From Candidatus Kuenenia stuttgartensis (lineage in GTDB: Bacteria; Planctomycetota; Planctomycetia; Planctomycetales; Planctomycetaceae), in NCBI GenBank assembly GCA_945861465.1, contig CAMAVB010000039.1:1-42906 (forward strand): 42,906 nucleotides of DNA, in the 5' to 3' direction. Below the pieces are notes generated by a model that searched no databases, had not been told where the DNA came from, and saw only the letters and a program-made list of their open reading frames with translations. Of this stretch, positions 16,296 to 36,765 are shown piece after piece. The translations under genes were made by a program, and so were the position numbers. The number at the start of each line of letters is the position of its first letter. Positions within the stretch are counted from its first letter, which is position 1.

Positions 16296-19200
16296 TCAAT
16301 TCTCGAGGCTGTCGATATTCATCGCGGCGGCATTGAAAAAGGCGATCTGTTCCTCGGTCAGGAGCAGCGTCTGAAAGAGGGAAGGGACGGAGCCCAGGGT
16401 TCTCGACGGCGTTCCTTCCGAGTTCGCGGTCTCCTCGAAAATCAGCCGGTATTTGAGATCGAAATCGCTGAAGAGAAACTCGGCAGCAAACATATTCACC
16501 TTGCCGACCGCGTTCATTTTGATTCCTCGCAGATCAGTCCCCGAACCATCTTCCTGCGGGTCGCGAATCGTCGTATCGGAAGATGGATTGTCGGTTTCGC
16601 TGCGGGAAGGCAAACGAGGGGAATCCGGACCTGCGGATCCCGCCGAGCCCTCCTGGATCGAACTACCCGCGAGCGCGATTGCATGCTCGGAATTTCCAGC
16701 CCGCTCGGCGATCTCGGACGCCCGAGAGGAATCAAGTTGCCAGCAGCGACCGTCCCAGTATGGCTCAAACTGTTGTATCGCGAGGTCAGCCTCCGTGTAC
16801 CGATTCGTGCGGCAAAGCAGTGTCAGTAAACGGGATAGCACGTCCGCGTCGCGAGATCCATTCTCGAGTGCCAGTCGAAACGTCTCTTCGGCGCGAAGGT
16901 CCTCTCTCTCCAACTGAAAGATGCGCCCTTCCAACGCGGTCACAACATGCCAGTTCGGACGCACCTGCTGGAGCCTGCGAAATGCGACGCGGATCTGGCC
17001 AGTGTCACTGAGGTCGCCAGACTCAGTGCGCATCAATAGTACGGCAACTCGGCACGCGGCGGCATAGGGACCACCAGTTCCCTCAATGGCTTCGATCTGC
17101 GGAAGGACTCCGGTGGCCCTCGCCCAGTGCCCCGAATTCAGACTGCTTTCAAACGCGAGCAGTTGAAGTTGCAGATTCTCAGGCTGCTGAGCTGCCAGTT
17201 GGTGCCACAGATGTTCGGCCTTTTCGTGAGCTCCCCGAAGAACCCAGGCGCGGGCCAATAGCACTTCAAGTCGCAGCCGTTCCGGCGCGGGACGCTGTTC
17301 AAGACTGTCTTCAATTGCAGCCAGCCGAGGCAGCGCGACGTCTGCGGCCTGCCAACTCCAAAAGTGAATCCATGCGGAATCAAGACGCACGTCGTCCCCG
17401 AATCGCTGCTCAGCCGTTTCCAGTGTTTCGCGGGCCAGCTCATTGGCTCTATTGCGCAGCGCTGTCAAAGCCAGAACCAACTGGACCTCTAATTCACGCG
17501 GAGTGCGGGCAACGGTCTCTGTCAGATATTGAATCGCGCTTTCAGCACCGGAACGAACTTCGTCGATCCTGGCCTTTAACAGGATCATCGGCCACGACGA
17601 TCGTGCGGAGTTCTCAGGCAGCGCAATCGCCTGATCAATGTCATCCCAATTTCTGTCGTTTGCATCAACAAGGAGCGTCCTTCTGAATTTCAGTTGCAGC
17701 AATTCAAGGGCAACTTCGGCATCATCCCGAACCATCGAAAGGTGGCGGATCGCATCGTCCAGATTTCCTCTTTCGGCCAGCGCGTGCGCCAGAGCTCTCC
17801 GTGGCGGGATCGCAGTTGGAGCGCGATCCAGAATTCGACGCAGCACTGCAATTTCGGAACTGCTGTCGTGGGTCTCATGGAAGCATCGCGCGAGCCAGGA
17901 GTCTGTCCACGTCTGCAACTCGGGCTCGCCCCGAAGTTGTGGCAGAACTTCCTCAAGCGACTTCGCGGCCTGACGCCAATCCTGAACCTGCATCACGACG
18001 AATGCCGACAGACACTTTCCCGCATGAATTGTCGATTCCGAAGGCTCTTTGGCTGAACCAAGCAGATCAATTTGAGCCCTGGCTTCGTCAAACTTCCTTG
18101 CGCTGACGAGAAGTAAAATCAACTGCAATCTGGCCCCGTAACTGTCGGGCTGAATTTCGAGTCCGCGTTGCAGCCATACCTGAGCGGACGGAATCGTTCC
18201 GAGTTTCGTTTCGAGCAACGCGAGCGACTGATAAAGCCCGAGATTTCCTGGATTCGAATCCACGGTCCGCTTCAAATGGCCGTAGCTGTTCTGCAGTTCT
18301 CCAGCATCGGAGACACCGCCCACGTTTGCCAGCCGGGTGACCATCAAATGAGCAGCAGTCAAGTTCGGATCCACTGCGCGGGCGTTTCGAATGTCGGCGG
18401 CCGATCCGCTGATCATTCCCGCGTTCAGTCGAAATCGGGAACGGAGAATCAACGCAGCGGGCGTTTGTCGGTTGGCGATCACCATCTGGTCAAGCATGTA
18501 GAAAAGCTGCGAGTCACTTCGAGACTTACGTATCCAAAGTCCGGCCAGTCTTTCATAAGCATCCAATTGCTCCGGCAGGCACTTGATCGAAGCCTCGTAT
18601 GCGGCAATGGCCGCCGAGAAATCTTCCTCCTGTTCATAACAACGACCGATCAGCAGTTTTAGCTCGCCGTCGTCCGGAGTTACTTTTTCCAGTAATTCGA
18701 GATTCAAAAGTGCTTCCTTGTTTCGACCAAGTTCCATCGCGATACCAATCAGCTGGCGTCGTGAATCCCGCCTCTCAGGGTCGAGTCCGCAGATGCGTTC
18801 CAGCAGCGTGAGCAAACTTTCGCTCTCTGCCAAGGTACGCGCCTGTCCATACATCGCAGAGGCAAACTCGACGAGGGCATCGACATCCTGGTCGTTTTGT
18901 GCGATGTACTGTTCGAGATACTGGAGATACAGATCCTGCTGGCCCTGTCGTTGTGCGTGATCTGCCTGCTGTCGCAAAGTTGCAGCGACCGGACGCTGTT
19001 GGTTCTTGTGCATTCGGTGAATGCCGAATCCTAAAACTCCGACAAAAATCAGTGCCAGAGCCATACGCCGGTAACTGAATAGTCTGCGAGTCGATCCGGG
19101 GTTGAGTGTTGCTTGCGCCGCTTCTGCGTCAGAGGCGATCTCGCCGTCGGACCAAATCGCGAAGGGTTCTCCGGTTTTCCGAGCCGCCAAGTCCGGAATC

Positions 19201-19358
19201 GGTCCAAATTCCGGCTCCGGCTCTGAACCCCCGCCAATTTTCCGCAGATCTCGCTGGACCAACGGCTCGCTCGGTCGCTCGGGTGAATTCGGTATCGGCG
19301 GAGCGCCGTCGTCCGGGGTATATTTGCCCGCCAATTCCTGATTCGAACTCGGTTCCAT
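16296..19358 (-). CDS. Membrane-anchored tetratricopeptide repeat protein
   Basis: The 1020-residue protein has a Pro/Glu-rich N-terminal tail (about 1-90), one transmembrane segment (about 98-115, 'MALALIFVGVLGFGIH') and then a long alpha-helical body of TPR-like repeats. Recurrent features are '...LLIGRCYEQEEDFSAAIAAYEASIK...', 'LALLETKLG...AQVWLQRGLEIQPDS' and 'LEVLLARAWVLRGAHEKAEHLWHQLAAQ'. TPR arrays are protein-interaction scaffolds. Large TPR proteins accompany exopolysaccharide and exosortase clusters in several phyla, where they may coordinate assembly at the membrane. The C-terminal 100 residues are less repetitive and Ser-rich. The gene begins 71 bp from the divergent VanZ-like gene at 19430, so a shared promoter region is likely. 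Confidence 0.88.
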   Translation of the reverse strand: MEPSSNQELAGKYTPDDGAPPIPNSPERPSEPLVQRDLRKIGGGSEPEPEFGPIPDLAARKTGEPFAIWSDGEIASDAEAAQATLNPGSTRRLFSYRRMALALIFVGVLGFGIHRMHKNQQRPVAATLRQQADHAQRQGQQDLYLQYLEQYIAQNDQDVDALVEFASAMYGQARTLAESESLLTLLERICGLDPERRDSRRQLIGIAMELGRNKEALLNLELLEKVTPDDGELKLLIGRCYEQEEDFSAAIAAYEASIKCLPEQLDAYERLAGLWIRKSRSDSQLFYMLDQMVIANRQTPAALILRSRFRLNAGMISGSAADIRNARAVDPNLTAAHLMVTRLANVGGVSDAGELQNSYGHLKRTVDSNPGNLGLYQSLALLETKLGTIPSAQVWLQRGLEIQPDSYGARLQLILLLVSARKFDEARAQIDLLGSAKEPSESTIHAGKCLSAFVVMQVQDWRQAAKSLEEVLPQLRGEPELQTWTDSWLARCFHETHDSSSEIAVLRRILDRAPTAIPPRRALAHALAERGNLDDAIRHLSMVRDDAEVALELLQLKFRRTLLVDANDRNWDDIDQAIALPENSARSSWPMILLKARIDEVRSGAESAIQYLTETVARTPRELEVQLVLALTALRNRANELARETLETAEQRFGDDVRLDSAWIHFWSWQAADVALPRLAAIEDSLEQRPAPERLRLEVLLARAWVLRGAHEKAEHLWHQLAAQQPENLQLQLLAFESSLNSGHWARATGVLPQIEAIEGTGGPYAAACRVAVLLMRTESGDLSDTGQIRVAFRRLQQVRPNWHVVTALEGRIFQLEREDLRAEETFRLALENGSRDADVLSRLLTLLCRTNRYTEADLAIQQFEPYWDGRCWQLDSSRASEIAERAGNSEHAIALAGSSIQEGSAGSAGPDSPRLPSRSETDNPSSDTTIRDPQEDGSGTDLRGIKMNAVGKVNMFAAEFLFSDFDLKYRLIFEETANSEGTPSRTLGSVPSLFQTLLLTEEQIAFFNAAAMNIDSLEN

Positions 19359-19429: not shown

Positions 19430-20380
19430 ATGAGCAACGAAACAGGGAACGCCATACCACGACTACTAACCCCACTCGTGCGCAGCTCAGCCCAATCCGC
19501 CAGGTCGGTGACCGGTTATTGGAAGGTTGTATCGGCCCTTGCACTGGTTCTGTTAATGATCGGGTTCTTCGTTCCACTGCCGAACGGGTATCGCGCGATT
19601 TGGTTTTCCCGCCTGCAGGATACGCTGCACGCTCCGGTGTTTGCATTCGTGGCAGTTTGTCTGAGATTTCTCTTCCACCGGACTTTGTTACAGACGATTG
19701 TACTGGCCTGTGGTGTCGCGGTGTTCATCGAAGTCTTCCAGGCAGGTGTCGGTCGCTCGATGAGCCTGACAGACCTGACCTATGATGGATTTGGCCTTGC
19801 GGCGGCCTTCGTGATGCTTCGAAGAACGGAATCATCGGACCGATGGATCTCTCGATGCTGTCGCTTGACATTGGCGACAACTTTTCTGCTGACACCGCTC
19901 GCCATGGAGTCACCGGTCCTGATCGATGCCTTGCGGGCTGCTCGTGAATTCCCGATGCTGGCCGATTTCAATTCAGGCTGCGAAACTCATCGATGGTACA
20001 GCGGCGGCATTAAGATGCGTCGCGTGCTGAACCATGGCAAGTGGAAAGGTGAGATACAGAATGCCTCGTTGCATACTTATGGCAGCGCGATCCTGTTGCC
20101 CGTCATTGGTGACTGGTCAGAGTATGATCGGGTGTGCTGCGAGTTTTCGTTCACCGGGCCTCCAATGCAGATTCTGATCTCCGCACGCGACGCAAAAGGC
20201 CGGATCGACTTCTCTCGTGAGTACACTGCGGGAACACACCGCGTTTGTGTAAATCTGCGAAATCCTGTCACTGCCGGCAGGTTGTCGCACCTGGATCTGA
20301 CTTGCGTTCAGAGTTTTCACTTTGCGCTTTTCGACAGCCCGGGCAGAACTGCACTGATTCATTCCGTGATGCTGGAATAG
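19430..20380 (+). CDS. VanZ-like membrane protein with C-terminal soluble domain
   Basis: The N-terminal half (about residues 30-175) holds four to five hydrophobic segments and the VanZ-like signature 'FIEVFQAGVGRSMSLTDLTYDGFGLAAAF' (Glu..Gln, Arg, Ser, Asp, Gly). The C-terminal half (about 180-316) is soluble and beta-rich, with 'HRWYSGGIKMRRVLNHGKWKGEIQNASLHT' and Trp/Tyr-rich strands, resembling a jelly-roll-like carbohydrate-binding fold; this is inference. VanZ proteins confer low-level teicoplanin resistance in enterococci, but most family members have unknown envelope roles. The gene is convergent with the giant fusion gene, which itself contains three VanZ-like modules. Confidence 0.8.
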   Translation: MSNETGNAIPRLLTPLVRSSAQSARSVTGYWKVVSALALVLLMIGFFVPLPNGYRAIWFSRLQDTLHAPVFAFVAVCLRFLFHRTLLQTIVLACGVAVFIEVFQAGVGRSMSLTDLTYDGFGLAAAFVMLRRTESSDRWISRCCRLTLATTFLLTPLAMESPVLIDALRAAREFPMLADFNSGCETHRWYSGGIKMRRVLNHGKWKGEIQNASLHTYGSAILLPVIGDWSEYDRVCCEFSFTGPPMQILISARDAKGRIDFSREYTAGTHRVCVNLRNPVTAGRLSHLDLTCVQSFHFALFDSPGRTALIHSVMLE

Positions 20381-20453: not shown

Positions 20454-23400
20454 TCACGGGGCGATTGTACTTACATCAGGTGCGGGAAAAGAGTTTCGTG
20501 GCCGAAGGCTTGAATCTGAATATCTCCTGATAACCCAGCGTTCAAATGTGGAGTACGACACCATGGCGATAACAACTGTGGCAGCGAATGACGCAGGGGC
20601 CACGAACCACGGATTTTGAGCGACGGACGAACCGGTCGATGCTATCAATTGGGAAACGACCGTTATGCACGCCAGATGATAAATGAAGACGCCGTACGAA
20701 ATGCGGCCCAGCATTCGAAAAGGCGCAATTTCCAGCAAACGCGCAGCAAACCTGGTACGCGGTACCGTAATGATCAGTAGCAGCAACATGCCAGGCACGA
20801 ACGGAAAGCGATATCTCGCATATGGGATATTGATTGCGTCAAAAACTGGAGTAGTAAGCACCAGCAACAGTCCGATCGCCGTGATCCAGAAGCAGGTATC
20901 CCATTTCATCGCTGTAGCGGTTTGGCATTTCCGCGACGCAGGATTCACAGCAACGAACAACCAGCCACCCGCAACACCAAGGAAGAACAGCGGAAGGTGA
21001 GCCAGCATCGAGCGCAGAAGGGCGGTCCCTGTGGGACTCAGGATTGACTGATCAAAGGGCCATGGCTCGATCCGTGGCACCGCTTGCATAATCATCGAGT
21101 TGAGTCCATACGACAGGATGCACAGTCCAAGGAATAATGTCAACAATCGCCCGTTGGTTACGTTGGACAGGCGACCTGCAAACCACACAGTCAACGCAAA
21201 TACAATATAGAACTGTGCTTGAACTGCGATTGTCCAGAACTGCGGGCTGATTCCATAAAAGCTGAAGTCAGTCAAATTGTGCAAAAAGAAAACATGCAAA
21301 GCCGTATCCCATAACTGCGTCGGTGTTTGAAAATGTCGCTTGAAGATCACCAGAATTGACAGACAAATCAGATATGCGGGTGCAAGCCGGATAAATCGCT
21401 GCAGGGCGAAGCCACGCAGGGCTAATGCACAACGATTTGACGGTGTTCCTCGCCATAGTGGCACACTCAGAAGGCACCCGCTGAGTGTAAAGAAGAATGC
21501 CACGCCTGTATTGCCGAAAGGCCTGACTCGCTGTAAGACGTCCGGTTCCGGATGAAAAGGCCCATACGAGACAAAATTGGTTACCAAGACCGCAACGGAT
21601 GCCACAGCCCTCAGTCCGTAGAGACCTGGATACAGCGTGGAACAACCGGTTGAACGATGCGATTCAGGTTGCGTCTCGCGCGTCGGCATAGGTGATCGCT
21701 GAGGCTGATGTTGTCGGATCTGCCTCAGGTATCGTTCGCTGATGCCGATTCCAAGCACGGCTCCGAAACTGCAGATGAGTGCATCCGTCAAGTCGGCAAT
21801 TTTTGTCGGCTGAAAGATCTGCCCCAATTCAATGCCAAACGCCACAAAGCTGGAGGCTGCGATCAGTACAGCCAGAACGAATCGCCGGATACCTTTGTTC
21901 GATGTTCCAGGTGGAACCGCGAGCACGAGAAATGCGCCAAGCGGAACGAACAGCAAAGTCTTTCGCGTAATCTGCACAATCGCGTTGAAGTCGTTGCCGG
22001 AATACAGCGAGCTGAACGGAACGCGAAAAAAACCTTCCAATCGATCCCGCAACATCTCTTTGTCAAATGCAAAATCAAACGGGGTCCAGAATCCCAGACA
22101 CAGCACAACACACCAGGAAACAGCAGCAGCGAGCCAGCCAAAATGGATCAGCGAGACCGGTTGGGCTCTTCCTTCGTCACGTTCCGTCACCGGTCGGTAA
22201 AGCATCATCAGGTACGCGCCAATGACGACGCCGATGAGTTCCGTCAGCAGATCCGTCGAATCGACGAATCTACTGTACACCAAAAGCTGCATGGCCTCGA
22301 CCGCAGCAACACAGAGCATGCCAACCAGACCGCATCGCAGCAGATCGCCACGAGTTCCCCATGCAAAATAAACAGCAATCAACGCGCCCACCGGGACAAA
22401 CAAGGCCACGTCAGCGACGATATTGTAAATAAAGTCAAATGGTGACGAGAATGCATGCGAGAACGGAATCAGCAGGATCTTTCCCTCCTGATACTTTTGG
22501 TAGATCTCGGTAGGGCGGAGGGTCAAATCAAGGGGCATGACCGAGTTGAGGATCAGACCGGCAGTGTATGCCTGAAGCAGCCTGATGCGGGTGTCGGCAA
22601 CATTGCGACTACCAAAGTATTGTCGCACCCAGTCCGTCAATTTCTGGCCAAAAAACAACCATAATCCGGCACCGACTACGGCACCGGACGATTCGGCAAA
22701 GATGTCGTTCAAAGAGACTGTTCGATTTGGAAACCAAAGCTGCGTGAATTCAATAGCCATGCAAAGGAATATTGAACCGATGACGACAAGCAACGACCTT
22801 AGGAAACGCTTGCCTCGGTGTTGCGAGTCCAAGCTCAAAGCTCCCGTCCATAAAAATGCAAGCGGAATAAACAGGAGAAGGTTGGCGACCAGGTCGGCGC
22901 GAGACCCGATTCCCAGACTCAGCAGGGGTATCTCGCGCAATTTCTGCAGTGCCTCAGCAAATCCCATGTCTGCGTACTGAAGTGGAACAAGGGATCCGTA
23001 GATCGCCAGAACCGTGTAGGCAATCGCAAGACCGGAATAATGTTTGCGCTGCGGCGGAACGGTCATAGAGGCAATCGTCTGAATTCTGCTGGTTCGCAGC
23101 CTCAATGGAGAAAACGCCGCATCGCGGCGATCCGCAGCGGCAGAATTCCGCCCAAGTTCTTGTCGCGGCAGGAACTTCGGCCTTGACACTGCGAGCAGTG
23201 CAGAGGCGACCCCGGCGAAGACGTACGGAAGCAACTGAAAATGCCGAGTGATGAAACAACCGGCAACCAGGTAAGCGAACAGGCCGCAGAGGAGACACCG
23301 TGCTTCTGGTGCCGGAAAGTCACTTGCCGACGATCGGCCCAAATTCCACAGCGATCTAAGTACGACCACAAAAAACGCAATGTAGAATGTAAGTCCGACC

Positions 23401-25979
23401 AATCCAAATTCTGCAAGTACGGTCAGGAAATTGCTATGTGCTGAGTAGCCTGCCCATTCCGGCAGGTGTTCACCAACAGATCCGGCAAAGTTGCCTGGAC
23501 CTATGCCAAATCCAAAGTGTTCCAGTGACAACTTCAATGCCACTTCCCAGAGGTCAAGTCTCGCTTTCGCGCTGGAATATGCGGGCCCAAACTGCCATAT
23601 GTCGGCAAATCTCTGATAGTATTCCGACTTCGTGAACGCCCAGCCACACAGCAACAGCGCCGGGACGCCCACGACGACATATCGCAACTTTTTAAAGCAC
23701 TGGAGCCACCCAACCAAAAGGACCGCTGTAAATGCCAGTCCTGCGCCTCGACTTCGGGTGTCGAAAAGCACCCACAGCAGAAGGATTGCAAGCCCGGAGA
23801 ACAAGATACGCAACCGGGCGTCAGCGACGATTGTTGCAGCACCGAACATGAGCGGTAACGCCATCACTGCGAGTTCTGCGAGATCGCCATCCAGTAACCT
23901 CAGATTTGGGTAGCTGACAGCCCTTATTAGAACCGTCCCTGCGAGCACGAGTGAAAAATAAAGAAAATCGCGTCTTTTCGAAGCGAACGTCGCGGAGACA
24001 AGAAACATCACAAGGGCGTTGATGACCTGGACAGGATGATGTTTAAGACCAAATGCCGCATCTCCGCTCTGATTGTACGCGGACATTGCAGAAATGGTCA
24101 CCGCCGCAGCGAACGCTGCGAGGATCCCTGGAAGTCTCCAGTCCAACTGTACAGACAATCCGCCTCGGCGGAAGACGGCGATTAAGGAACCCACGCCTGT
24201 CAGCCCGCAAATCCACTCCGGATAACTCCCGGCAAGCAGATACTCAACATCCGGCCCGTACCGCGGGAAGCCATAAATCGTCGCGATGTACGCAAAGACT
24301 CCCGCCAGCGGATAGTATGGTACGACGGCCAGGATCAGTATTGTCGTTGTCCAAATAACGATGCTCGCAACCGGCGGCTTCCAGCCGAGCGGCTGATCCA
24401 GGGGCGCGGTTGTCGAGTGCGCAGCTGCAAGAGCCAGCCCGACTGCAACTGCACATACAGCAATGACATAGACTGCTGTCAGCACCTGCAGCTTCAGGAA
24501 AGCGGGTTGCTCCCACCGACTGAGAGTCTGTGATACGAGTTTGATTCCAGGCGACCGTGACGAAACAGACCTAAGCGCCGCGATTGTTGCAAGCATCAGA
24601 ATGCTGCCGCCGACGATTCGCCGGATGAGGTGTTTTGTCCAAAAAGTATCGCCCGGCGTTCGTGGGGACTCAGCGGTCTCGCGAGAGGTTACACGGACTG
24701 GATTTGTGTAGAACAGCAGATCCGGCCCATTGAGTACCTCATGTCGTCCGCGAGCGCGAATCACAATGCCTCCCCGTGGTAGTCCCATCACATGCTCGAC
24801 CTGGATCCGATCTTTATACGGCCCTGTGAGCGTGACGATTCTCGTGCCAGAGGAATCGGTGACAATCAACTCGATCGAGTCGATGCGTCCTTCCTGACCG
24901 AATGCGCCAATTGCGGAAACCGTGCCGGACACCTCGATTTCCAGAGGAGTATCGACCTCTGCCACGATTGATTCGCCGGCACGCGCTGGTCGTTCCAGCC
25001 CATCCGCTGCGACGGAAATTTCAAGCTCTCGCACAATCCCGCAGTGCGATCCGAAATACGATCCCGCCCGCAGCGCTGAGAGGACTCCAGCTGAAGTTCG
25101 TTCAGGGGCGTACACCCAGGTTTCTGAAAATTCGCCAGGCCAGTAATCGTCGCGTTCGTTATGGAAATCGGATGTTGCCAACGCGCCCCACACGTCTGAG
25201 CCCGATCCAAGTTGCTGGTCCCAGATCCCACCCACCTCAGCGGCAACCGGATCCCAGCGATCGATCGGCATGACCGGGCCCTTGTAGGCACCCAGTTGTT
25301 TTCCCTTTTGATGCCCTGGCGCTCCCTCGAAGCCGATCGTGACGGCACTGTCGTCGAGCATCGTCTGGAATTGCTGTCCCGCTTCGGTGGCCGAAGCCGT
25401 TTTTCGCGAAGGATGATTGAGGATGACGACCGGTCTGGAATCGTCCGCAGTTTCGACTGATTCCAGCCAGCGAATGGCCTGTTCTGCGAGGTGCTCCGTT
25501 TGCTCCGTCCGTTTGAAATCGTCAAACTGCGACTTGAAGTCTGCCAGCTGCAGAAACTCATCCGGCCCGCCTGGCATCAGGACAGTCGCATGTGTGTCAC
25601 CTTTCCACGGAGGAACGTTCCACTCGAGACCTGCCAGAATCAGCAACTCGGGGTGCTCACGCCGGGCAACTTCGATGGCTTCGGCGTATTCGAGCGAAGC
25701 CCCCTTCAGATTCTGATCACCGTGGTCTGTGATTGCAATTGCATCGCAGCCGAACTCGCGGGCTTTCGCAGCGACCACGCTGACGGAATGAGCTCCGTCC
25801 GAGAACGTGGTATGAATATGCGTATCAACTTTCATCCACACGCCTGAATCCATCCACTCGGTCTTGCGGACAAATTCCGGTCGAGGCACCCCGCGATCGC
25901 AGCCGATCAGCAGAAATGCTGCCAGACCGTACGCAAGTGTTGGCAGCAGCCCGTGAAGTGGGAGGTGATTCGGAATCAT
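20454..25979 (-). CDS. Giant fusion: lipoprotein signal-PHP-O-antigen ligase-3x VanZ-acyltransferase 3
   Basis: This is one uninterrupted frame of 1841 residues. Modules in order: a signal with lipobox 'LIGC' (Cys27); a PHP metallo-hydrolase domain (about 50-320) with 'DTHIHTTFSDG', 'ITDHGD', 'GLEWN', 'NHPS' and 'SDFHN'; a beta-rich stretch (about 330-430); a membrane segment (455-470); an O-antigen polymerase/ligase-like domain (about 495-935) with 'SAHSNFLTVLAEFGLVGLTF' (His848); VanZ 1 (about 978-1112, 'IEFTQLWFPNRTVSLNDIF'); VanZ 2 (about 1133-1262); VanZ 3 (about 1283-1415); and acyltransferase 3 (about 1448-1820, 'FFFTLSGCL', 'RFIRLAPAYL'). In the last domain the usual His after the 'LRA...' helix is Asn ('LVTNFV'). 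A likely role is glycan polymerisation or ligation plus trimming and acylation at the membrane. Met972 could be an internal start. The start is fixed by an ATGA overlap with the upstream gene. Confidence 0.85.
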   Translation of the reverse strand: MIPNHLPLHGLLPTLAYGLAAFLLIGCDRGVPRPEFVRKTEWMDSGVWMKVDTHIHTTFSDGAHSVSVVAAKAREFGCDAIAITDHGDQNLKGASLEYAEAIEVARREHPELLILAGLEWNVPPWKGDTHATVLMPGGPDEFLQLADFKSQFDDFKRTEQTEHLAEQAIRWLESVETADDSRPVVILNHPSRKTASATEAGQQFQTMLDDSAVTIGFEGAPGHQKGKQLGAYKGPVMPIDRWDPVAAEVGGIWDQQLGSGSDVWGALATSDFHNERDDYWPGEFSETWVYAPERTSAGVLSALRAGSYFGSHCGIVRELEISVAADGLERPARAGESIVAEVDTPLEIEVSGTVSAIGAFGQEGRIDSIELIVTDSSGTRIVTLTGPYKDRIQVEHVMGLPRGGIVIRARGRHEVLNGPDLLFYTNPVRVTSRETAESPRTPGDTFWTKHLIRRIVGGSILMLATIAALRSVSSRSPGIKLVSQTLSRWEQPAFLKLQVLTAVYVIAVCAVAVGLALAAAHSTTAPLDQPLGWKPPVASIVIWTTTILILAVVPYYPLAGVFAYIATIYGFPRYGPDVEYLLAGSYPEWICGLTGVGSLIAVFRRGGLSVQLDWRLPGILAAFAAAVTISAMSAYNQSGDAAFGLKHHPVQVINALVMFLVSATFASKRRDFLYFSLVLAGTVLIRAVSYPNLRLLDGDLAELAVMALPLMFGAATIVADARLRILFSGLAILLLWVLFDTRSRGAGLAFTAVLLVGWLQCFKKLRYVVVGVPALLLCGWAFTKSEYYQRFADIWQFGPAYSSAKARLDLWEVALKLSLEHFGFGIGPGNFAGSVGEHLPEWAGYSAHSNFLTVLAEFGLVGLTFYIAFFVVVLRSLWNLGRSSASDFPAPEARCLLCGLFAYLVAGCFITRHFQLLPYVFAGVASALLAVSRPKFLPRQELGRNSAAADRRDAAFSPLRLRTSRIQTIASMTVPPQRKHYSGLAIAYTVLAIYGSLVPLQYADMGFAEALQKLREIPLLSLGIGSRADLVANLLLFIPLAFLWTGALSLDSQHRGKRFLRSLLVVIGSIFLCMAIEFTQLWFPNRTVSLNDIFAESSGAVVGAGLWLFFGQKLTDWVRQYFGSRNVADTRIRLLQAYTAGLILNSVMPLDLTLRPTEIYQKYQEGKILLIPFSHAFSSPFDFIYNIVADVALFVPVGALIAVYFAWGTRGDLLRCGLVGMLCVAAVEAMQLLVYSRFVDSTDLLTELIGVVIGAYLMMLYRPVTERDEGRAQPVSLIHFGWLAAAVSWCVVLCLGFWTPFDFAFDKEMLRDRLEGFFRVPFSSLYSGNDFNAIVQITRKTLLFVPLGAFLVLAVPPGTSNKGIRRFVLAVLIAASSFVAFGIELGQIFQPTKIADLTDALICSFGAVLGIGISERYLRQIRQHQPQRSPMPTRETQPESHRSTGCSTLYPGLYGLRAVASVAVLVTNFVSYGPFHPEPDVLQRVRPFGNTGVAFFFTLSGCLLSVPLWRGTPSNRCALALRGFALQRFIRLAPAYLICLSILVIFKRHFQTPTQLWDTALHVFFLHNLTDFSFYGISPQFWTIAVQAQFYIVFALTVWFAGRLSNVTNGRLLTLFLGLCILSYGLNSMIMQAVPRIEPWPFDQSILSPTGTALLRSMLAHLPLFFLGVAGGWLFVAVNPASRKCQTATAMKWDTCFWITAIGLLLVLTTPVFDAINIPYARYRFPFVPGMLLLLIITVPRTRFAARLLEIAPFRMLGRISYGVFIYHLACITVVSQLIASTGSSVAQNPWFVAPASFAATVVIAMVSYSTFERWVIRRYSDSSLRPRNSFPAPDVSTIAP

Positions 25980-26884
25980 CGTTTTCTGGGCTCGGTTTCA
26001 GAAATCTTCGCCTGACCGGCACTGTTCATACGCAGGGACGCCGAGTTCTTCCCATCAGGGCTCTGCACGGCAATCACCGATGCTCCATCGGGAGAAGTGA
26101 TCATGCTGCCGCCTGGTTTTCCTCCGGGGAGTTGCGTTGACAGGATCGCCACACCGTCTGCAAGTCGCATCATATTGGGGCCATCCTCTAAATCTTTTCC
26201 ACGAAGAGTGATCTGACCCAGCCCATCATTCAGAACGCGCATGATCGCCTCAGTGGCCGATCTTGATCCTGTGATGCGTACCTCGGCGTCTCCATTCGGG
26301 GCGACCGATACCGCTGTCTTCGCGTTTTCCAGACCTGTCAGCAGCAACTGGGACCCGCCATCGTCGGAAACGACCGCCTCAAACCCAGATTGCCTGCCGG
26401 TAAGTGCCAGCGAGAGGTTACCGTCTCGTGTTGCGAGGAGTTTCCCCGTCCGATCGCCATGCGTGATCGTTGCAACACTGTCACCGTCTGCATCCACCGT
26501 CAGGATGACGCCGGGCTCCCCGTTACTACTCCTGAGTACCAGCTGTGCCTGGCCGTCATCGTTGACCAGCAATTCGATGCGGGGATGACCAGAAGTGTCC
26601 TGAATGACAATCGGCTCCATGGCATTGTGCCGGGGTGATGCTCCACTCGGCGTTGTTTCCAACTCCACAGTTTTCGGTGCTACTGACTCAGGCAGGGGTT
26701 TCTCAGACGGGAGGTTGGCGGAGTCCGAAGCAGGCCGATCGATGCTCGGCTTCCGAGCCGGAAGTACCTGCTCACGGAGCACAGGCTTAGCGGACGTCGC
26801 GTCGGTGGCACCGCGATCCAGCACCAGCATGCCTCCCACAACCAACGCGACAGCGTAAAGCATCACACGTTCAGTGGTACTCAT
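25976..26884 (-). CDS. Anchored beta-repeat protein of unknown function
   Basis: I do not recognise a family. The 302 residues start with a single hydrophobic segment ('VMLYAVALVVGGMLVL', about 7-22), fitting a membrane anchor or uncleaved signal. A Pro/Ser/Glu-rich spacer follows to about residue 90, then a run of roughly 20-residue repeats to the end. Each repeat has alternating hydrophobic residues and Asn/Asp-Gly turns (for example 'SDDGGSQLLLTGLENAKTA', 'APNGDAEVRITGSRSATEA', 'LNDGLGQITLRGKD'), which suggests a beta-solenoid or stacked beta-hairpins outside the cytoplasm. The stop codon overlaps the start of the giant fusion gene (ATGA), so the two products are probably made in a fixed ratio and may work together. 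Confidence 0.72.
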   Translation of the reverse strand: MSTTERVMLYAVALVVGGMLVLDRGATDATSAKPVLREQVLPARKPSIDRPASDSANLPSEKPLPESVAPKTVELETTPSGASPRHNAMEPIVIQDTSGHPRIELLVNDDGQAQLVLRSSNGEPGVILTVDADGDSVATITHGDRTGKLLATRDGNLSLALTGRQSGFEAVVSDDGGSQLLLTGLENAKTAVSVAPNGDAEVRITGSRSATEAIMRVLNDGLGQITLRGKDLEDGPNMMRLADGVAILSTQLPGGKPGGSMITSPDGASVIAVQSPDGKNSASLRMNSAGQAKISETEPRKR

Positions 26885-27105: not shown

Positions 27106-27537
27106 TCAACTGCTGCTCCGCAGCGCCATGCAGCCGACGGACACCAAACCCCTGACGAGAAACCAGCCCACAACCAGGCCGACTAAATTTGCGAGGCCAT
27201 CCACCGCGCTGCAGGATCGCGGCGGGATCCAGTACTGCAGACATTCGGTTCCGACAGCGTGGCACAACCCGAAAAGGAGTGCCAGCGGCAGAGACCGATT
27301 TGACGCTCGACTGCTCGCTGCCAGTAGTATGCCGAGCATCGAATATACGATGGCATGTTGCACGTAATCCGCCAATGTGCTGTCGAACGTCTGTTCGGCC
27401 GATCGTCCCGGCGAACCGAAAATCCACCAGGGATCAGGTGCCAGTGTCAGATACGATAGCACAATGACGTAGAAGACCGTCAATACCGTTGTCACATGAC
27501 CGGCGTGTTGCCGTGGTCTATTTCGAAATTCTTTCAC
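27106..27537 (-). CDS. VanZ-like membrane protein
   Basis: A small 143-residue protein with about four hydrophobic segments. The family signature lies in the last third: 'GTECLQYWIPPRSCSAVDGLANLVGLVVG' (Glu..Gln, Arg, Ser, Asp, Asn, Gly). The start is a GTG whose GTGA overlap with the stop of the GT4 gene ties it to the operon 31068-27106. It is one of five VanZ-like modules in this window. The molecular role of the family is unknown apart from glycopeptide tolerance of VanZ itself. Confidence 0.85.
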   Translation of the reverse strand: MKEFRNRPRQHAGHVTTVLTVFYVIVLSYLTLAPDPWWIFGSPGRSAEQTFDSTLADYVQHAIVYSMLGILLAASSRASNRSLPLALLFGLCHAVGTECLQYWIPPRSCSAVDGLANLVGLVVGWFLVRGLVSVGCMALRSSS

Positions 27538-28727
27538 GGCACCCTGCCAGTTGCGGTCAGTTCCGTCCCGGCGTTATCGTGGCTGTCGGTTTCAAGGCCA
27601 GCGTACACCTGAACCATTTTGTCCATGCGACGGTCAAAGCTGTAGTTTTCTTCGACTGTTTTTCGAGCCCGGCGTGCCATCGTTGAGGAAAGATCGCGAT
27701 GAACCACCATCTCGCGTATCGCATCGGCAAGGACTTGAGCGTCGCCCGGCTCGACCAGCAAGCCGTTCGCATGATCACAAATGACCTGCGGGATCCCGCC
27801 AACTTTGGTGACGACGACCGGCACTTCCATGGCCATTGCCTCCAGCAACGCATTCGGCAGCCCTTCGCGCAGGCTCGCAAGCACGAACAGGTCCATCGCA
27901 CGGTACAGTTCGATCGTGTTCGACTGATAGCCAGCCAGGTGAATTCTGTCCTGAAGGCCCAAACGCTCAATCTGAGCCTCAAGGTCGCCGCGAATATTCC
28001 CTTCGCCTATAATCAGGAGAGAAATGTTATAGCCTTCCTTGAGCAGCCGATCAACGGCGTCGATCAGAAAACTATAGCCCTTCTCCACAGACAGACGGCC
28101 TACTGAACCAATCAGATAGCGATCTGCCGGAATTCCCAGCCGTTCCCGTGACGAATTGCAATCGGTGGAGGGCGCGTAGACTGTCGTGTCTATTGCGTTC
28201 AGAATCAGTTGACATTTCGCGGGCGGGACACCACTTGCCACGCAAGCCTGCAGTAGATCTTCGGAGACACACACAATTTTCTTATAGAACCGCAGACTCA
28301 GCCGGTCGATCCAATAATACAAAGGTGTCCGTTTGGTATGCCGAACCCAGCCGTGAACTGTCGTGACCAGATGCATGCGGTGGAACAGGCGGATCAACAA
28401 TCCGATGGCATTGCTCTTGTAGTCGTGGCCATGCCAGATTGTGACTTTCTCAGCCCGGCAGAGTTTCAGCAGTTGCCAGACGACTCGAAGATCCAATGGC
28501 CCCCGGTCAGGCACGGAGATCAAATTGACATTCAACGCCAGCGCGCGTTTCTGAATTTCCGCAAATCCGGGATCATGCGGCGGATGAAGGTAAGCACAAA
28601 CTCCCCGGTATCCACGTTTTTCGAGGTGAGCAGGCGAATTCAGGATCGTCTTTTCAGGTCCTCCGCCCGTTTCAGTCACAACACGGACATGCAGTACAAC
28701 ACGGCCTGTTTGTTGGGTACGTGTCAT
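27534..28727 (-). CDS. Glycosyltransferase family 4
   Basis: This is a retaining GT-B glycosyltransferase of 397 residues. The N-terminal half has 'VVTETGGGPEKTILNSPAHL' (glycine-rich acceptor loop) and 'IWHGHDYKSNAIG'. The donor half has 'IGSVGRLSVEKGYSFLIDAV', 'LIIGEGNIRGDLEAQIERLG' and the E-x7-E motif in 'ASLREGLPNALLEAMAMEVP'. The start at 28727 (within ATGA, overlapping the TuaH-like gene's stop) is chosen over the longer frame from 28754. Its stop overlaps the VanZ-like start. It acts in the cytoplasm on a lipid-linked glycan; the sugar is not predictable from sequence. Confidence 0.93.
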   Translation of the reverse strand: MTRTQQTGRVVLHVRVVTETGGGPEKTILNSPAHLEKRGYRGVCAYLHPPHDPGFAEIQKRALALNVNLISVPDRGPLDLRVVWQLLKLCRAEKVTIWHGHDYKSNAIGLLIRLFHRMHLVTTVHGWVRHTKRTPLYYWIDRLSLRFYKKIVCVSEDLLQACVASGVPPAKCQLILNAIDTTVYAPSTDCNSSRERLGIPADRYLIGSVGRLSVEKGYSFLIDAVDRLLKEGYNISLLIIGEGNIRGDLEAQIERLGLQDRIHLAGYQSNTIELYRAMDLFVLASLREGLPNALLEAMAMEVPVVVTKVGGIPQVICDHANGLLVEPGDAQVLADAIREMVVHRDLSSTMARRARKTVEENYSFDRRMDKMVQVYAGLETDSHDNAGTELTATGRVP

Positions 28728-29971
28728 GTCTGAACAATTCCTGTTTGGCCCCAATCAAACAGGAGCCGTTCGAATTCAGAAGCTCTGGCAGTCCACGATT
28801 CGTTTTGCAAACGACCGCGTGACTTGCGGTGTGCCTCAGTGAGACCATGGGAGATGCCCTGCAACACACTCTGTGAAAACTGAACCGGATCTGAAGCAAG
28901 ATCGAGACAATCAGCCCACTGCCGGGTCGCGGGAAGATCACGGACCACAACGGGTTTCTGATTCGCCAGGTACTCCAGCAGTTTCAATGGCTGCATGGCA
29001 CGTGTCACCGGAAGATCGGCATACGGCATGACCAGCACATCGGCATCGTTCCCGAGTGATGGCAGATCCTCATAGCCCATCGACGGCAAAATCCGGACGC
29101 GCGGCAATCCGAAGATCGCAGGATCCGGGTCTGCCTGCGGACCGACCAGCAGAATCGTGCCGCGTTCAAGGTCCTGGCCCAGCCGCCGCAGGAACTCAAC
29201 ATCCATCCGCCGGTCAATCACTCCCCAAAACACAACGAGCGGATGTTCGAATGACTGCCATGGCCGTACCCCGTTGGATTTGCGCGCCGTCGGATTGTCC
29301 CAATGTTCCAGATCGACGCCATGCGTCAGCAAATGCACCGGTTTCCCACTTTCACGCAACCGCTGCTGAAGTGTCTCCCCCGCCGCGATCAGAAAGTCCG
29401 ACTTTTCAATGACTGTTTTCTCCAGTTGCGCCATTGTCTTCTGGTCGAGACCCGGCCATTGGGAAAAATCATCGACGCAGTAGTACACCCAGCGATCGAC
29501 TGGCAATCGCCCCATCAGGTCCGCAACAATCGGAATCGTCGTGACTGCGACGCGCTGGCCTTCATGACTTCCAAGTCGCCGTTGCAACTGACTGTTCAGC
29601 AGAAAGCGATTCAGCCTGCGGGAAGCGGGGCCAGAAAACGCCGGCCACATCCGTGGATTCCACACCGAGAGATTCTCGGGCACCGAAGTCAGCGTGCCAC
29701 TCCCAGCGCCGGACCAGTGTCTGAGCTTCTCAGCCGCTCGACGAATTGTGGCCAGATCAAACGTCGGCGTGCGCATGCCAATGGTGTTGACCCAGGCTGT
29801 CGGAATCCGAGGCAAAAGGTGACGAATCAGATGCTGGCAACTCGACGGGTGTCGTCCCCAGTCATCGGAAAAGACCAGGAGCGAGACACCCTGCGGCGAC
29901 GACAAGGAAGACTCCCGACTTTGAATCAGTCGGCCTTCCATTGTGCCGTCGTCGTCGATGAGAGTGTCCAT
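28724..29971 (-). CDS. TuaH/GT4-like glycosyltransferase (copy 2)
   Basis: A 415-residue GT-B enzyme and paralogue of the gene at 13491-14609. Shared blocks are 'FSDDWGRHPSSCQHLIRHLL', 'WVNTIGMRTPTFDLATIRRA', 'RWVYYCVDDFSQWPG', 'VFWGVIDRRMD', 'GTILLVGPQ' and 'ADVLVMPYADLPVTRAMQPL'. ATG 29971 is used because it lies two bases after the stop (TAA) of the FemAB-like gene; the frame is open to 30145 but antisense-like. Its stop overlaps the next GT4 start in ATGA. The N-terminal 30 residues before the first block are acidic and not conserved in copy 1. Confidence 0.88.
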   Translation of the reverse strand: MDTLIDDDGTMEGRLIQSRESSLSSPQGVSLLVFSDDWGRHPSSCQHLIRHLLPRIPTAWVNTIGMRTPTFDLATIRRAAEKLRHWSGAGSGTLTSVPENLSVWNPRMWPAFSGPASRRLNRFLLNSQLQRRLGSHEGQRVAVTTIPIVADLMGRLPVDRWVYYCVDDFSQWPGLDQKTMAQLEKTVIEKSDFLIAAGETLQQRLRESGKPVHLLTHGVDLEHWDNPTARKSNGVRPWQSFEHPLVVFWGVIDRRMDVEFLRRLGQDLERGTILLVGPQADPDPAIFGLPRVRILPSMGYEDLPSLGNDADVLVMPYADLPVTRAMQPLKLLEYLANQKPVVVRDLPATRQWADCLDLASDPVQFSQSVLQGISHGLTEAHRKSRGRLQNESWTARASEFERLLFDWGQTGIVQT

Positions 29972-31798: not shown

Positions 31799-32929
31799 TT
31801 ACTTCGTCAGCATCTCGCGATACAGAGCTGCGTATTCGCTGTGCATCCGGTCTTCCGAAAAATGTGAAATGGCATGCACTCGGCCACGCTTCCCCATTTC
31901 TTCCCGAAGCTGTGGGTCCGCTGACAGACGCAACAATCGGTCGGCCAGTCCTTCGTCGTCACCAGCAGTCGCCAGCAGCGCTGTCACTTCGTCCTCCACG
32001 ATTTCAGGAATCCCGCCGACCCTTGTCGAAACCACCGGCAGCCCGGCACACATCGCTTCAATAATCGTCAGCGGAATTCCTTCGCTGATGCTGGTCAACA
32101 GGAATGCGTCAGATGCGGCCAGGACGCGGGAAACATCGCTGCGGATCCCTAGCAGGCGCACCTGTGAGGAAACGCCTCTCTTCTGAATTTCTGCCTCAAT
32201 CGCTGCGCGCTCCGGTCCATCCCCGACAAGGAGCAGCCGCACGCGATCACATTCCCGCGCCACTCGCTCGATCGCCCGAATTGCCGTGAGATGGTCCTTG
32301 AGGTAATCCAGCCGGGCCACCTGAGCCACCACAAAATCTTCGTCGTTCAGTCCAAGTTCAGCCCGCACCTGCGCCCGATCAGCGCCTTGATGTCCGTTTT
32401 TATACGGAGACATATCAATGCCGTTGTAAATTACGCCAACTCGTGATTCGGGAATTCCCTCGTTCTGAATCAGCGCTTGGCGCACGGCGTTGCCGACACC
32501 AACGCAGCGGTCTTTCTGACGCAGGAAACAACGATTGAAGATCATGCGCTTGCGTCGCGGAAAGTCCGGAAGAAACCGACCATGTTCAGTAAACAGGACG
32601 GGCACGCGACTACCAAACAGCCGGGCAGTCATGCCGTAAAAAAACGGTGTGTACTGGTGGGCGTGGACCGCATCGACTTTTTCCTGCCTGATCAAACGCG
32701 ATAGTCTCAGGCTGCACCGCCAATCGATGCCTGGCTGCCGCTTCAGTGAAACAACACTGAACCCATCTTCCCGGAGAGATTCACCCAGACTCCCGATTTC
32801 ATCCAGGCACACGAACAGAAAGTCAAACTCACCCCGCAATCGCTGCCCGAGACGGCACGCAAGGACCTCGGTTCCTCCTACGGGAAGTCCGAGAACAAGC
32901 TGGCAAATTTTTTTTTTCAGCGGTTGCAT
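31799..32929 (-). CDS. Glycosyltransferase family 4
   Basis: A 376-residue GT-B glycosyltransferase. The N-terminus has 'QLVLGLPVGGTEVLACRL' (acceptor-side glycine loop) and 'VDAVHAHQYTPFFYGMTA'. The middle has 'FTEHGRFLPDFPRRKRM' and 'VIYNGIDMSPY'. The donor half has 'VAQVARLDYLKDHLTAIRAI', 'LLLVGDGPERAAIEAEIQKRG' and the E-x7-E region 'TSISEGIPLTIIEAMCAGLP'. This pattern matches GT4 enzymes of exosortase-associated polysaccharide clusters. The gene is monocistronic by spacing, with repeat-rich gaps on both sides. The sugar is unknown. Confidence 0.93.
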   Translation of the reverse strand: MQPLKKKICQLVLGLPVGGTEVLACRLGQRLRGEFDFLFVCLDEIGSLGESLREDGFSVVSLKRQPGIDWRCSLRLSRLIRQEKVDAVHAHQYTPFFYGMTARLFGSRVPVLFTEHGRFLPDFPRRKRMIFNRCFLRQKDRCVGVGNAVRQALIQNEGIPESRVGVIYNGIDMSPYKNGHQGADRAQVRAELGLNDEDFVVAQVARLDYLKDHLTAIRAIERVARECDRVRLLLVGDGPERAAIEAEIQKRGVSSQVRLLGIRSDVSRVLAASDAFLLTSISEGIPLTIIEAMCAGLPVVSTRVGGIPEIVEDEVTALLATAGDDEGLADRLLRLSADPQLREEMGKRGRVHAISHFSEDRMHSEYAALYREMLTK

Positions 32930-35134: not shown

Positions 35135-36487
35135 TCAACGAAAGTGAACCATATCCACCATCACGAACTCACGCACCCAGCTCAGCAAGAGAATCAGACA
35201 AACGCCTGCCGCCAGCGGGAACAGGCGATGCCGACGTACGTCGCGCCACGACGTCGCTGCAGCTGCGGCGTAAATCGCAAGGATGGGGATGAGCGGAAGA
35301 TGATACCGCGAATGCGCGAACGCAATCGAGTGAAGCAAACAGGGAAATGCGATGGTGAGGACCAGCATCCACCGCACACGGACGTCTGTCGGGGGAACCA
35401 GAATTGCTCCGAATATCGCACCGAAGATCACGGTGACATAAGCACCGCAAATCAGAATGGCTGTTGTCAGGATTGTCGGTTTGGAAAGTGGGCCAAAGTA
35501 ACCGGCCATCGATCCGGCAATGAGTTCACGTTCAAGCTGCCAGAAGTTAAAGAATTTGATCAGACTCCGCCGCAATGACAATCCTGGGTGTGACAGGGCA
35601 AAACGAATCCCATACTTCATCGCAAGTTTGTCAATCTGTCCCTGCGTCAGATCTCGATAGCCAGGATTAGCCGCAGCGAGCACGCGATGCCAGACCCGAT
35701 CACCAGTGACGTCGGTGACGGTAGCCCAGGATCGTTCCATCGGCGTGAATTCATAGTTGCCCATCATCACATTGCGACCGCCCATCACATCGATAAAAGT
35801 GAGCGTCTCCTGCACCTTTGAATTTCGGTAAACCCACGGAGCAATCGTCAGTAGAAAACAAGTCATGGGAATCGCGGCACACCGGAATCGATTCCAAAGG
35901 CCTGGACCGCAAGCGAGAAACATGTAGGCGGCCAGTAACGGCGTAAACAGCCAGAGTATGCTGCGTGTCAGCGCACCAAGGCCAAGGACGATGCCGAGCA
36001 TCACCAGTCGAGTCAGCAAATTCCGCTTGATCACCAGTGTCGTCAGTAACACAATCACGCTTTGAAAAAACGTGAACAACACTTCGCTGAGAATCTGATG
36101 ATTGAAGCCCAGCAGCGTTGGATAGAAGCAGATGATCGCGGCGGCAACCACTCCGACACGCCGACAATAAATCTCCACTCCCGTCTTGTACACGATCACG
36201 GTCGTCAGCAAACTTAGCACGATCTGAAAAATGTGGACCGCCAGCAGGTTATGAGCCCCGAACATGCGATAAAGCCCCGCGACCATCACTGGATAAAACG
36301 GAGGCCGCAGAGATGTCGGTACACCATCCGCACTCGCATACGATCCGGTTTCAGCGAGTGATGTGCCCAGTTGGTCATAGTCCAATGCGTCGGAAATGCG
36401 GATCGGCAAATCGTGAAAAAACACGAGTAACGCCAGACGAGGAATCAGTCCCAGAATCAAAATCAGCAGGAGCGGATGAAGCTTCAT
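35135..36487 (-). CDS. ArnT/GT39-like membrane glycosyltransferase
   Basis: An integral membrane protein of 450 residues with about ten hydrophobic segments. The N-terminus 'MKLHPLLLILILGLIPRLALL' is followed by a loop with the acidic 'DALDYDQLGTSLAETG' and 'SLRPPFYPVMVAGLYRMFG', typical of GT-C dolichyl-phosphate-mannose-type transferases, whose catalytic Asp is in the first periplasmic loop. Near the end 'HSRYHLPLIPILAIYAAAA' is also typical. Such enzymes move a sugar from a polyprenyl-phosphate donor onto a lipid or glycan outside the cytoplasm. ATG 36487 is chosen because AAGGGA lies a few bases upstream; the frame extends to 36685, but that part is repeat DNA. The polyprenyl-phosphate sugar genes UbiA-like and YqeG-like lie next upstream. 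Confidence 0.9.
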   Translation of the reverse strand: MKLHPLLLILILGLIPRLALLVFFHDLPIRISDALDYDQLGTSLAETGSYASADGVPTSLRPPFYPVMVAGLYRMFGAHNLLAVHIFQIVLSLLTTVIVYKTGVEIYCRRVGVVAAAIICFYPTLLGFNHQILSEVLFTFFQSVIVLLTTLVIKRNLLTRLVMLGIVLGLGALTRSILWLFTPLLAAYMFLACGPGLWNRFRCAAIPMTCFLLTIAPWVYRNSKVQETLTFIDVMGGRNVMMGNYEFTPMERSWATVTDVTGDRVWHRVLAAANPGYRDLTQGQIDKLAMKYGIRFALSHPGLSLRRSLIKFFNFWQLERELIAGSMAGYFGPLSKPTILTTAILICGAYVTVIFGAIFGAILVPPTDVRVRWMLVLTIAFPCLLHSIAFAHSRYHLPLIPILAIYAAAAATSWRDVRRHRLFPLAAGVCLILLLSWVREFVMVDMVHFR

Positions 36488-36596
36488 AATTCCCTTGACT
36501 TGCGCAGCATCGCGCTTTCGCTCGGGACCCGATGCCAGGCCGTTGGGCGAAGTTTTAGTCAGTTCTGACACACGTGATTTTCCGGAATGTGATTCA

Positions 36597-36765
36597 GTCC
36601 CGGAGGGACGACAGGATGTAGCCACGGGCGAGAGCCCGTGGTGATAAATGATGGAGCATCGGAAGTCCCGAAGGGACGACAGCAATTGCGACTGGGTTGT
36701 CCCATGTCGTCCTTTCAGGACTGAAAATCGCCTGTATCTCTCTCACCACGGGCTCACGCCCGTGG
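36597..36765. repeat. Second hairpin cluster (GTCCC-GGGAC and CCACGGGC-GCCCGTGG)
   Basis: Five palindromes: 36597-36609, 36622-36641, 36665-36677, 36709-36721 and 36746-36765. The two CCACGGGC hairpins (8-bp stems) are inverted copies of one another including the flanking TAGCCACGG, so the cluster is itself symmetric. No gene lies in 36488-36838; a C/G-rich CCCCCGGAACGGGGGAGGGG stretch ends it. Confidence 0.8.

Follow-up and report, generated by a model that had tools for sequence, protein, structure and literature searches.

A four-module reading frame with a triple VanZ unit in a putative XrtA/PEP-CTERM-type exopolysaccharide locus of Candidatus Kuenenia stuttgartensis

In the main-text passages drawn on here, Burroughs, Nicastro and Aravind (2025; PMC12419801) predict that the VanZ-1 lipocones (PF04892) act on flipped, carrier-linked sugar head groups in exopolysaccharide (EPS) pathways, by release or transfer. 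The reaction is presented there as a prediction, and for several EPS the terminal transfer step is described as having no assigned enzyme. The same passages mention duplicated VanZ-1 in betaproteobacteria, and neither a triple VanZ-1 nor planctomycetes, the latter with one count in the whole-paper index. An excerpt of another study describes VanZ as conferring lipoglycopeptide resistance (PMC7146870). For gene neighborhoods, the XrtA/PEP-CTERM EPS loci serve as the reference, in the searched text of which VanZ is not mentioned (PMC1569441). We found no paper with both VanZ and exosortase in the literature searched, which left most subscription journals and all preprints outside, and among the matches listed for VanZ and EPS with ligase, floc or planctomycete terms, only the lipocone paper was directly relevant. 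VanZ-1 lipocones in EPS loci were already predicted in 2025; the four-way fusion presented below is observed only here.

The window, that is, the whole 42,906-nucleotide stretch of DNA analyzed, carries on its minus strand an uninterrupted frame of 1841 codons (20454-25979), which starts with ATG and has zero internal stops. The original prediction, which gave no strand, had described a single frame of PHP, ligase-type, three VanZ and acyltransferase-3 (AT3) domains. Pfam analysis confirmed this list, in the order of PHP (residues 52-148, 35.9 bits against a cut-off of 26.4), O-antigen ligase-like or WaaL-like (Wzy_C, residues 730-867, 56.9 against 31.7), triple VanZ (three stretches, 118.1 against 30.1; hereafter V3) and AT3 (PF01757, residues 1453-1808, 79.4 against 31). 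A frame of this length that holds four families above their cut-offs goes far beyond what chance would give, and the GC content at third positions stays at 0.50-0.65 throughout. The assertion that no standard system has this order also stands, in that none was found described in the literature searched. What the prediction overlooked is V3 as a conserved unit of its own, as well as the XrtA/PEP-CTERM type of the locus. Hydropathy and structural models suggested a lipobox-like N-terminus and an outer PHP domain, followed by roughly 35 membrane helices. The signal-like segment covers residues 1-27 (25899-25979, minus strand) and ends with the lipobox-like L24-I25-G26-C27; the absence of Lys or Arg ahead of its hydrophobic stretch is a weak point of this assignment. 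Cys-ending segments also precede PHP in six relatives (G133, G115, G032, G291, G018 and L175). In the predicted topology, the Arg/Lys-rich linkers near 933-975 and 1416-1450 would be cytoplasmic.

The PHP module (about residues 31-440; 24660-25889, minus strand; defined by Pfam, NCBIfam and motif rows) resembles the CehA/McbA-type PHP metallohydrolases (PF02811, NF038032) in its HxH, DH, E, H, H and DxH motifs. All putative metal ligands, namely H54, H56, D85, H86, E119, H130, H189, D271 and H273, are present. In contrast to the CehA/McbA type, it falls below the NF038032 cut-off (50.7 bits over residues 48-428, cut-off 80), bears a lipobox-like anchor and is fused to membrane enzymes. Its sole match in the PDB by sequence at E ≤ 0.01 is the PHP phosphoesterase 9etk (E 2e-4). 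The predicted outer-side hydrolase is supported by a signal-like start of outer-side type and by intact metal-ligand motifs. Among the 11 PHP rows, of which L049 and L068 stem from the same genome (G181), the motifs are intact in seven and degenerate in four, the latter from three genomes. The V3-fused PHPs of G021, G181 and G182 have lost the metal-ligand motifs, which argues that PHP catalysis is not always needed. Such V3-fused PHPs with the motifs gone are seen in L038:8213-12535, L068:6422-10891 and L070:1296-3290, and they are likely pseudoenzymes that kept the fusion.

In the ligase module (about residues 445-965; 23085-24647, minus strand; defined by Pfam, rows and model), H848, R744 and R807 are found in 23 of 23 rows and R790 in 22 of 23. 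We take these conserved periplasmic His and Arg residues to be catalytic. The model of this module (pLDDT 81.4) has its best PDB match in WaaL (7tpg_B; E 8.7e-6, probability 1.00; TM 0.43/0.54), the only match at E ≤ 0.001, with FtsW chains ranking next. It therefore shares with the O-antigen ligase WaaL (PF04932, PDB 7tpg) an above-cut-off Wzy_C match, the fold and the conserved His and Arg, but differs in being fused on both sides and in having 18% identity. The claimed lipid-linked glycan polymerase or ligase agrees with these findings; the module resembles WaaL, although neither sequence nor fold tells ligase from polymerase activity. The AT3 module (residues 1445-1841; 20457-21647, minus strand; defined by Pfam and rows) shares Arg1457, Arg1528, Tyr1591 and Glu1813 with the AT3 relatives covering these sites. 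However, it reads R1457-x10-N1468 where relatives have R-x10-H: position 1468 is His in 10 of the 10 other rows covering the site, L113 having no letters there. In OafB, a member of the same acyltransferase-3 family, R14 and H25, which have the very spacing of R1457 and position 1468, are named essential in the excerpt used (PMC9833829). Given that Asn1468 replaces the proposed catalytic His, acylation by this module, which the original prediction had called an acylating module, is doubtful. An intact AT3 enzyme was accordingly set aside, with a base error in the draft genome being possible.

V3 (residues 975-1431; 21687-23057, minus strand; defined by Pfam, rows and AF2) is the hub of the frame, a conserved 12-helix protein with a near-invariant polar set in repeat 1. 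The AF2 model (pLDDT 91.1, pTM 0.85) consists of twelve long helices forming three 4-helix units. Repeat 1 comprises helices 4-23, 50-75, 81-106 and 116-149, with a short helix (33-41) between the first two, and repeats 2 and 3 are built likewise. No solved structure resembling V3 was found by sequence search or by Foldseek at E ≤ 0.001 (best E 0.57); NCBIfam vanZ_1 matches at 24.6 bits against a cut-off of 20. The polar sets are R1027/D1029/N1033/E1077/Q1080/R1086/D1092 in repeat 1, D1190/E1228/Q1231/D1243 in repeat 2 and K1340/E1384/Q1387/D1399 in repeat 3. Across the 45 rows collected by similarity, with partial or duplicate V3 left out, the residues of repeat 1 are kept as follows: R1027 in 41, D1029 in 43, N1033 in 43, E1077 in 45, Q1080 in 43, R1086 in 43, S1089 in 33, D1092 in 44, G1099 in 45 and G1103 in 45. 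In the window plus 79 loci of a genome-contig scan, all ten are present in 80 of 80, a figure that partly reflects selection, because one of the two search patterns contains D1029 and N1033. In the same 80 sequences, ExxQ is kept in 80 for repeat 2 and 78 for repeat 3, and the H4 Asp in 77 and 78, respectively. The position of the H2 Asn of repeat 1 is instead Asp in repeat 2 (D1190, 68/80) and Lys in repeat 3 (K1340, 73/80). With the polar set intact in repeat 1 and the H2 residue changed in the others, repeat 1 seems complete and the other two specialized.

Compared with the VanZ-1 lipocones as described in the passages of PMC12419801, V3 has in common the 4-helix units, the H1-H2 linker helix, ExxQ in H3, the H2 Asn (in repeat 1), the H4 Asp, and an EPS gene context as predicted there. 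H4 of repeat 1 reads SxNDxxxE, and agrees with the published DxDDxxxN only at the canonical Asp, D1092. In contrast to those lipocones, V3 is made of three tandem non-equivalent units that stay together across Planctomycetota and Pseudomonadota, and here it is fused to PHP, ligase and AT3 modules. A separate single-VanZ protein of 316 residues (19430-20380, plus strand) adjoins the giant gene on the opposite strand; its VanZ score of 26.1 bits is below the Pfam cut-off of 30.1, and its C-terminal part looks soluble.

Judged from its gene content, the surrounding region is an XrtA/PEP-CTERM-type EPS locus. It shares with the loci described in parts of PMC1569441 the FemAB marker (TIGR03019; 29974-31086, minus strand), which at 331.2 bits exceeds the cut-off of 260.35. 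A TPR protein related to PrsT of the XrtA system (16296-19358; 95.8 bits, cut-off 312.2), an amidotransferase with its best match to XrtA/PEP-CTERM eps_aminotran_1 (TIGR03108; 38997-40898; 722.1 bits, cut-off 816.9) and two stp2-like group-1 glycosyltransferases (27534-28754 and 31799-32929) are also present, all on the minus strand and all below the respective cut-offs. The fusion locus differs from those loci in having VanZ, of which the searched text on them makes no mention. A PrsT-like TPR homologue is also found downstream in G021, G181 and G182, and in G033 behind the AT3 frame. Directly upstream of the giant frame, a family-less gene (25976-26884, minus strand) encodes 302 residues with one N-terminal TM-like segment, and its 3' end overlaps the ATG of the frame by 4 bases, as in coupled operons. 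Its homologue is directly upstream of the fusion-type frame in G018 and G033; homologues also directly precede V3 genes in G063 and G133. A PMT_2-type membrane glycosyltransferase (35135-36685, minus strand) lies within the same locus.

Relatives were sought in three overlapping sets of planctomycete genomes with different E cut-offs, yielding matches in 29 of 170 family genomes, the window's own included (E ≤ 1e-10), in 85 of 397 class genomes (E ≤ 1e-15) and in 8 of 392 phylum genomes (E ≤ 1e-40). At these cut-offs, the four-way frame was found in no other genome of the three sets. Among the matches listed, PHP and AT regions do not share a frame outside the window's genome, and 17 genus mates gave no match in the VanZ region. 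Module profiles built here were used to assign the architectures of the relatives. In the single-contig genome G018, PHP, ligase (LIG), VanZ and V3 are joined in one frame of 1604 residues, counted from stop to stop. In G033, a LIG-V3 frame reaches a contig end and an AT3 frame opens another contig, flanked by genes of the families seen in the window, which would fit a V3-AT joint in G033 as well. PHP-V3 fusions occur in G021 and G181 and likewise in G182, where the fusion is split over contigs. In G032 and G115, a VanZ-PHP gene adjoins a V3 gene, whereas in G133 the PHP and V3-type genes are far apart; many others have V3 only. Finally, LIG, AT, PHP and VanZ-type proteins are encoded by four separate neighbor genes within about 6 kb in G291.

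Among named genomes, a first genome-contig scan with the whole protein as query found no relative, and a second found 117, of which 80 were kept. They comprise Planctomycetota, many Pseudomonadota and a few others; the Pseudomonadota with V3 include Thiobacillus, Methylomonas, Nitrosospira, Rubrivivax, Rheinheimera and Aquincola. In Aquincola tertiaricarbonis, strain MIMtkpLc11 (L182) carries a V3 frame, and for the floc-forming strain RN12, transposon genetics and an EPS cluster are described (PMC9850573). A full V3 is present in 79 of the 80 loci; L192, with V3 split over two frames, is left out of the following counts. By our own profile, 14 of 79 loci have a ligase-type gene no more than 400 bp from V3 and one has it fused to V3, leaving 64 with neither; some loci end at contig ends. 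By Pfam, L171 (Chromatiaceae) joins V3 and Wzy_C in one frame of 1383 residues. L175 (Pirellulaceae) has a PHP-V3 fusion. In four loci, L126 (Rhodoferax), L143, L161 (Rubrivivax) and L193 (Burkholderiaceae), the V3, ligase and AT3 genes are clustered within 5 kb, with AT3 at most 1.4 kb and the ligase at most 1.2 kb from V3. That unrelated genes were joined by chance is therefore unlikely, given the G018 fusion, the G291 neighbors and these four Pseudomonadota loci. The original prediction had taken homologues in separate adjacent genes as evidence against it. Such neighbors do exist, with all four modules in G291 and three of them in L126, L143, L161 and L193, but, seen together with the partial fusions elsewhere, they speak for a functional unit and not for an artefact.

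The link of V3 to the XrtA-type gene set is also seen at the level of genomes, in a comparison that ignores phylogeny: of the 81 class genomes with V3, 69 have FemAB (TIGR03019), against 54 of the 316 without V3 (n = 397, both counts being taken as the same 397 genomes; Fisher p 1e-30). The V3-positive count leaves out G003, G050, G218 and G288, the matches of which lie outside VanZ, and includes G018 and G291 on the basis of the module profile. FemAB need not lie nearby, its distance being about 28 kb to the G018 fusion and about 45 kb to the four-gene cluster of G291.

These findings enable us to propose that the frame is a natural fusion of four partners working on polyprenyl-diphosphate-linked EPS at the outer leaflet of the inner membrane, within an XrtA/PEP-CTERM-type locus, a reading to which we assign a probability of roughly 55%. 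Fusions and neighborhoods link VanZ to a WaaL-like ligase, a PHP hydrolase and an AT3 protein, all of them expected on the same membrane face, and a shared terminal step of EPS assembly is the most likely reading. At best, the protein would be a fused device of the outer leaflet for transferring, releasing or trimming EPS linked to its carrier; among its modules, we infer the following division of steps. The WaaL-like module would transfer the finished glycan from its carrier to an acceptor. VanZ repeat 1, as a lipocone, may cleave or exchange the phosphate-linked head group, resulting in chain release or carrier recycling, while repeats 2 and 3 may bind or position this head group. The lipid-anchored PHP module could then remove phosphate from the product on the same membrane face. 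The AT3 module would be a former O-acylating partner, probably impaired in this protein by the Asn at the place of the proposed catalytic His.

The main rival to a shared terminal EPS step concerns protein glycosylation. The ligase module would then be a protein O-glycosylation ligase that hands glycan to exosortase-sorted PEP-CTERM proteins, with V3, PHP and AT3 serving this transfer. Indeed, among NCBIfam families the whole frame scores best against TIGR03097, the exosortase-A-associated O-glycosylation ligase, which covers the ligase module at 63.1 bits. The protein encoded after the four-gene cluster of G291 matches PEP-CTERM marginally, at 21.1 bits against a cut-off of 20.7, and the window's own genome encodes two exosortases above the TIGR02602 cut-off. 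However, the TIGR03097 score is far under its cut-off of 188.1, both exosortases are on other contigs, and no PEP-CTERM match was found among the window proteins scanned. We thus regard this version as unlikely. The fusion could also be incidental, if the polypeptide were cut or if Met972 (23064-23066, minus strand) yielded a separate V3-AT product, which appears quite improbable. As the original prediction had pointed out when suggesting a shorter product, this Met exists; it lies at the ligase/V3 boundary near the start position of some stand-alone V3 proteins, and the separate genes in G291, L126 and L161 also favor independent products. On the other side, no obvious Shine-Dalgarno-like stretch was seen by eye before Met972, leaving it a possible but unsupported internal start; given that planctomycetes often have no Shine-Dalgarno sequence, this is weak evidence. 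In-frame PHP-LIG-V3, LIG-V3 and PHP-V3 fusions in other genomes further argue against an incidental joint.

That V3 is a VanZ for resistance or lipid-II protection, with no relation to EPS assembly, is very unlikely: the VanZ-mediated lipoglycopeptide resistance cited above and a weak match to vanZ-F (40.1 bits against a cut-off of 375) speak for it, but no other van-type gene is found among the window proteins scanned and V3 accompanies EPS-type genes, a context on which this candidate was set aside. Least credible of all is an assembly or sequencing artefact joining separate genes, which the draft state of the genome (474 contigs), the fully separate genes of G291 and the failure to find a complete second V3-AT joint would allow, but which is countered by the location of the frame inside a 42.9-kb contig with even third-position GC, by the single-contig G018, with PHP, ligase and VanZ joined in the order seen here, so that an artefact is set aside for the PHP-LIG-V3 part, and by the contig-end pattern with matching flanking families in G033, which fits the V3-AT joint; as the only backing for that joint beyond the frame itself, the G033 pattern leaves it less well supported.

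Within the preferred reading of a shared terminal EPS step, a bolder and quite tentative proposal is that the triple VanZ is a missing terminal enzyme of XrtA-type EPS pathways, a three-lipocone membrane enzyme that would take over the chain on its carrier and, together with the ligase, PHP and AT3 as partners, release or hand over the finished polymer, the whole terminal step here being carried by one polypeptide. The fusion, together with the same genes adjoining in other phyla, ties VanZ to the terminal step more directly than gene context by itself. It suggests that the partners share a step on lipid-linked sugar chains at the outward face of the membrane and renders this step testable. 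It names a conserved family, V3, with few near-invariant residues and some culturable hosts.

Further variation was observed around V3. Of the 39 V3 proteins with a C-terminal extension of more than 250 residues, 37 have in common a multi-helix domain of about 320 residues (e.g., L152:9878-12259), which stands behind V3 in Pseudomonadota and is N-terminal in Singulisphaera (L096 and L097). This domain has no Pfam match in L152 and L163, the two scanned, and the proteobacterial extension showed no link to the C-terminal part of the VanZ gene at 19430-20380 or to 25976-26884. In L192:869-2544, V3 extends over two overlapping frames, reflecting either a frameshift or two genes. In L042:7649-10474, a beta-helix domain is fused to two VanZ stretches.
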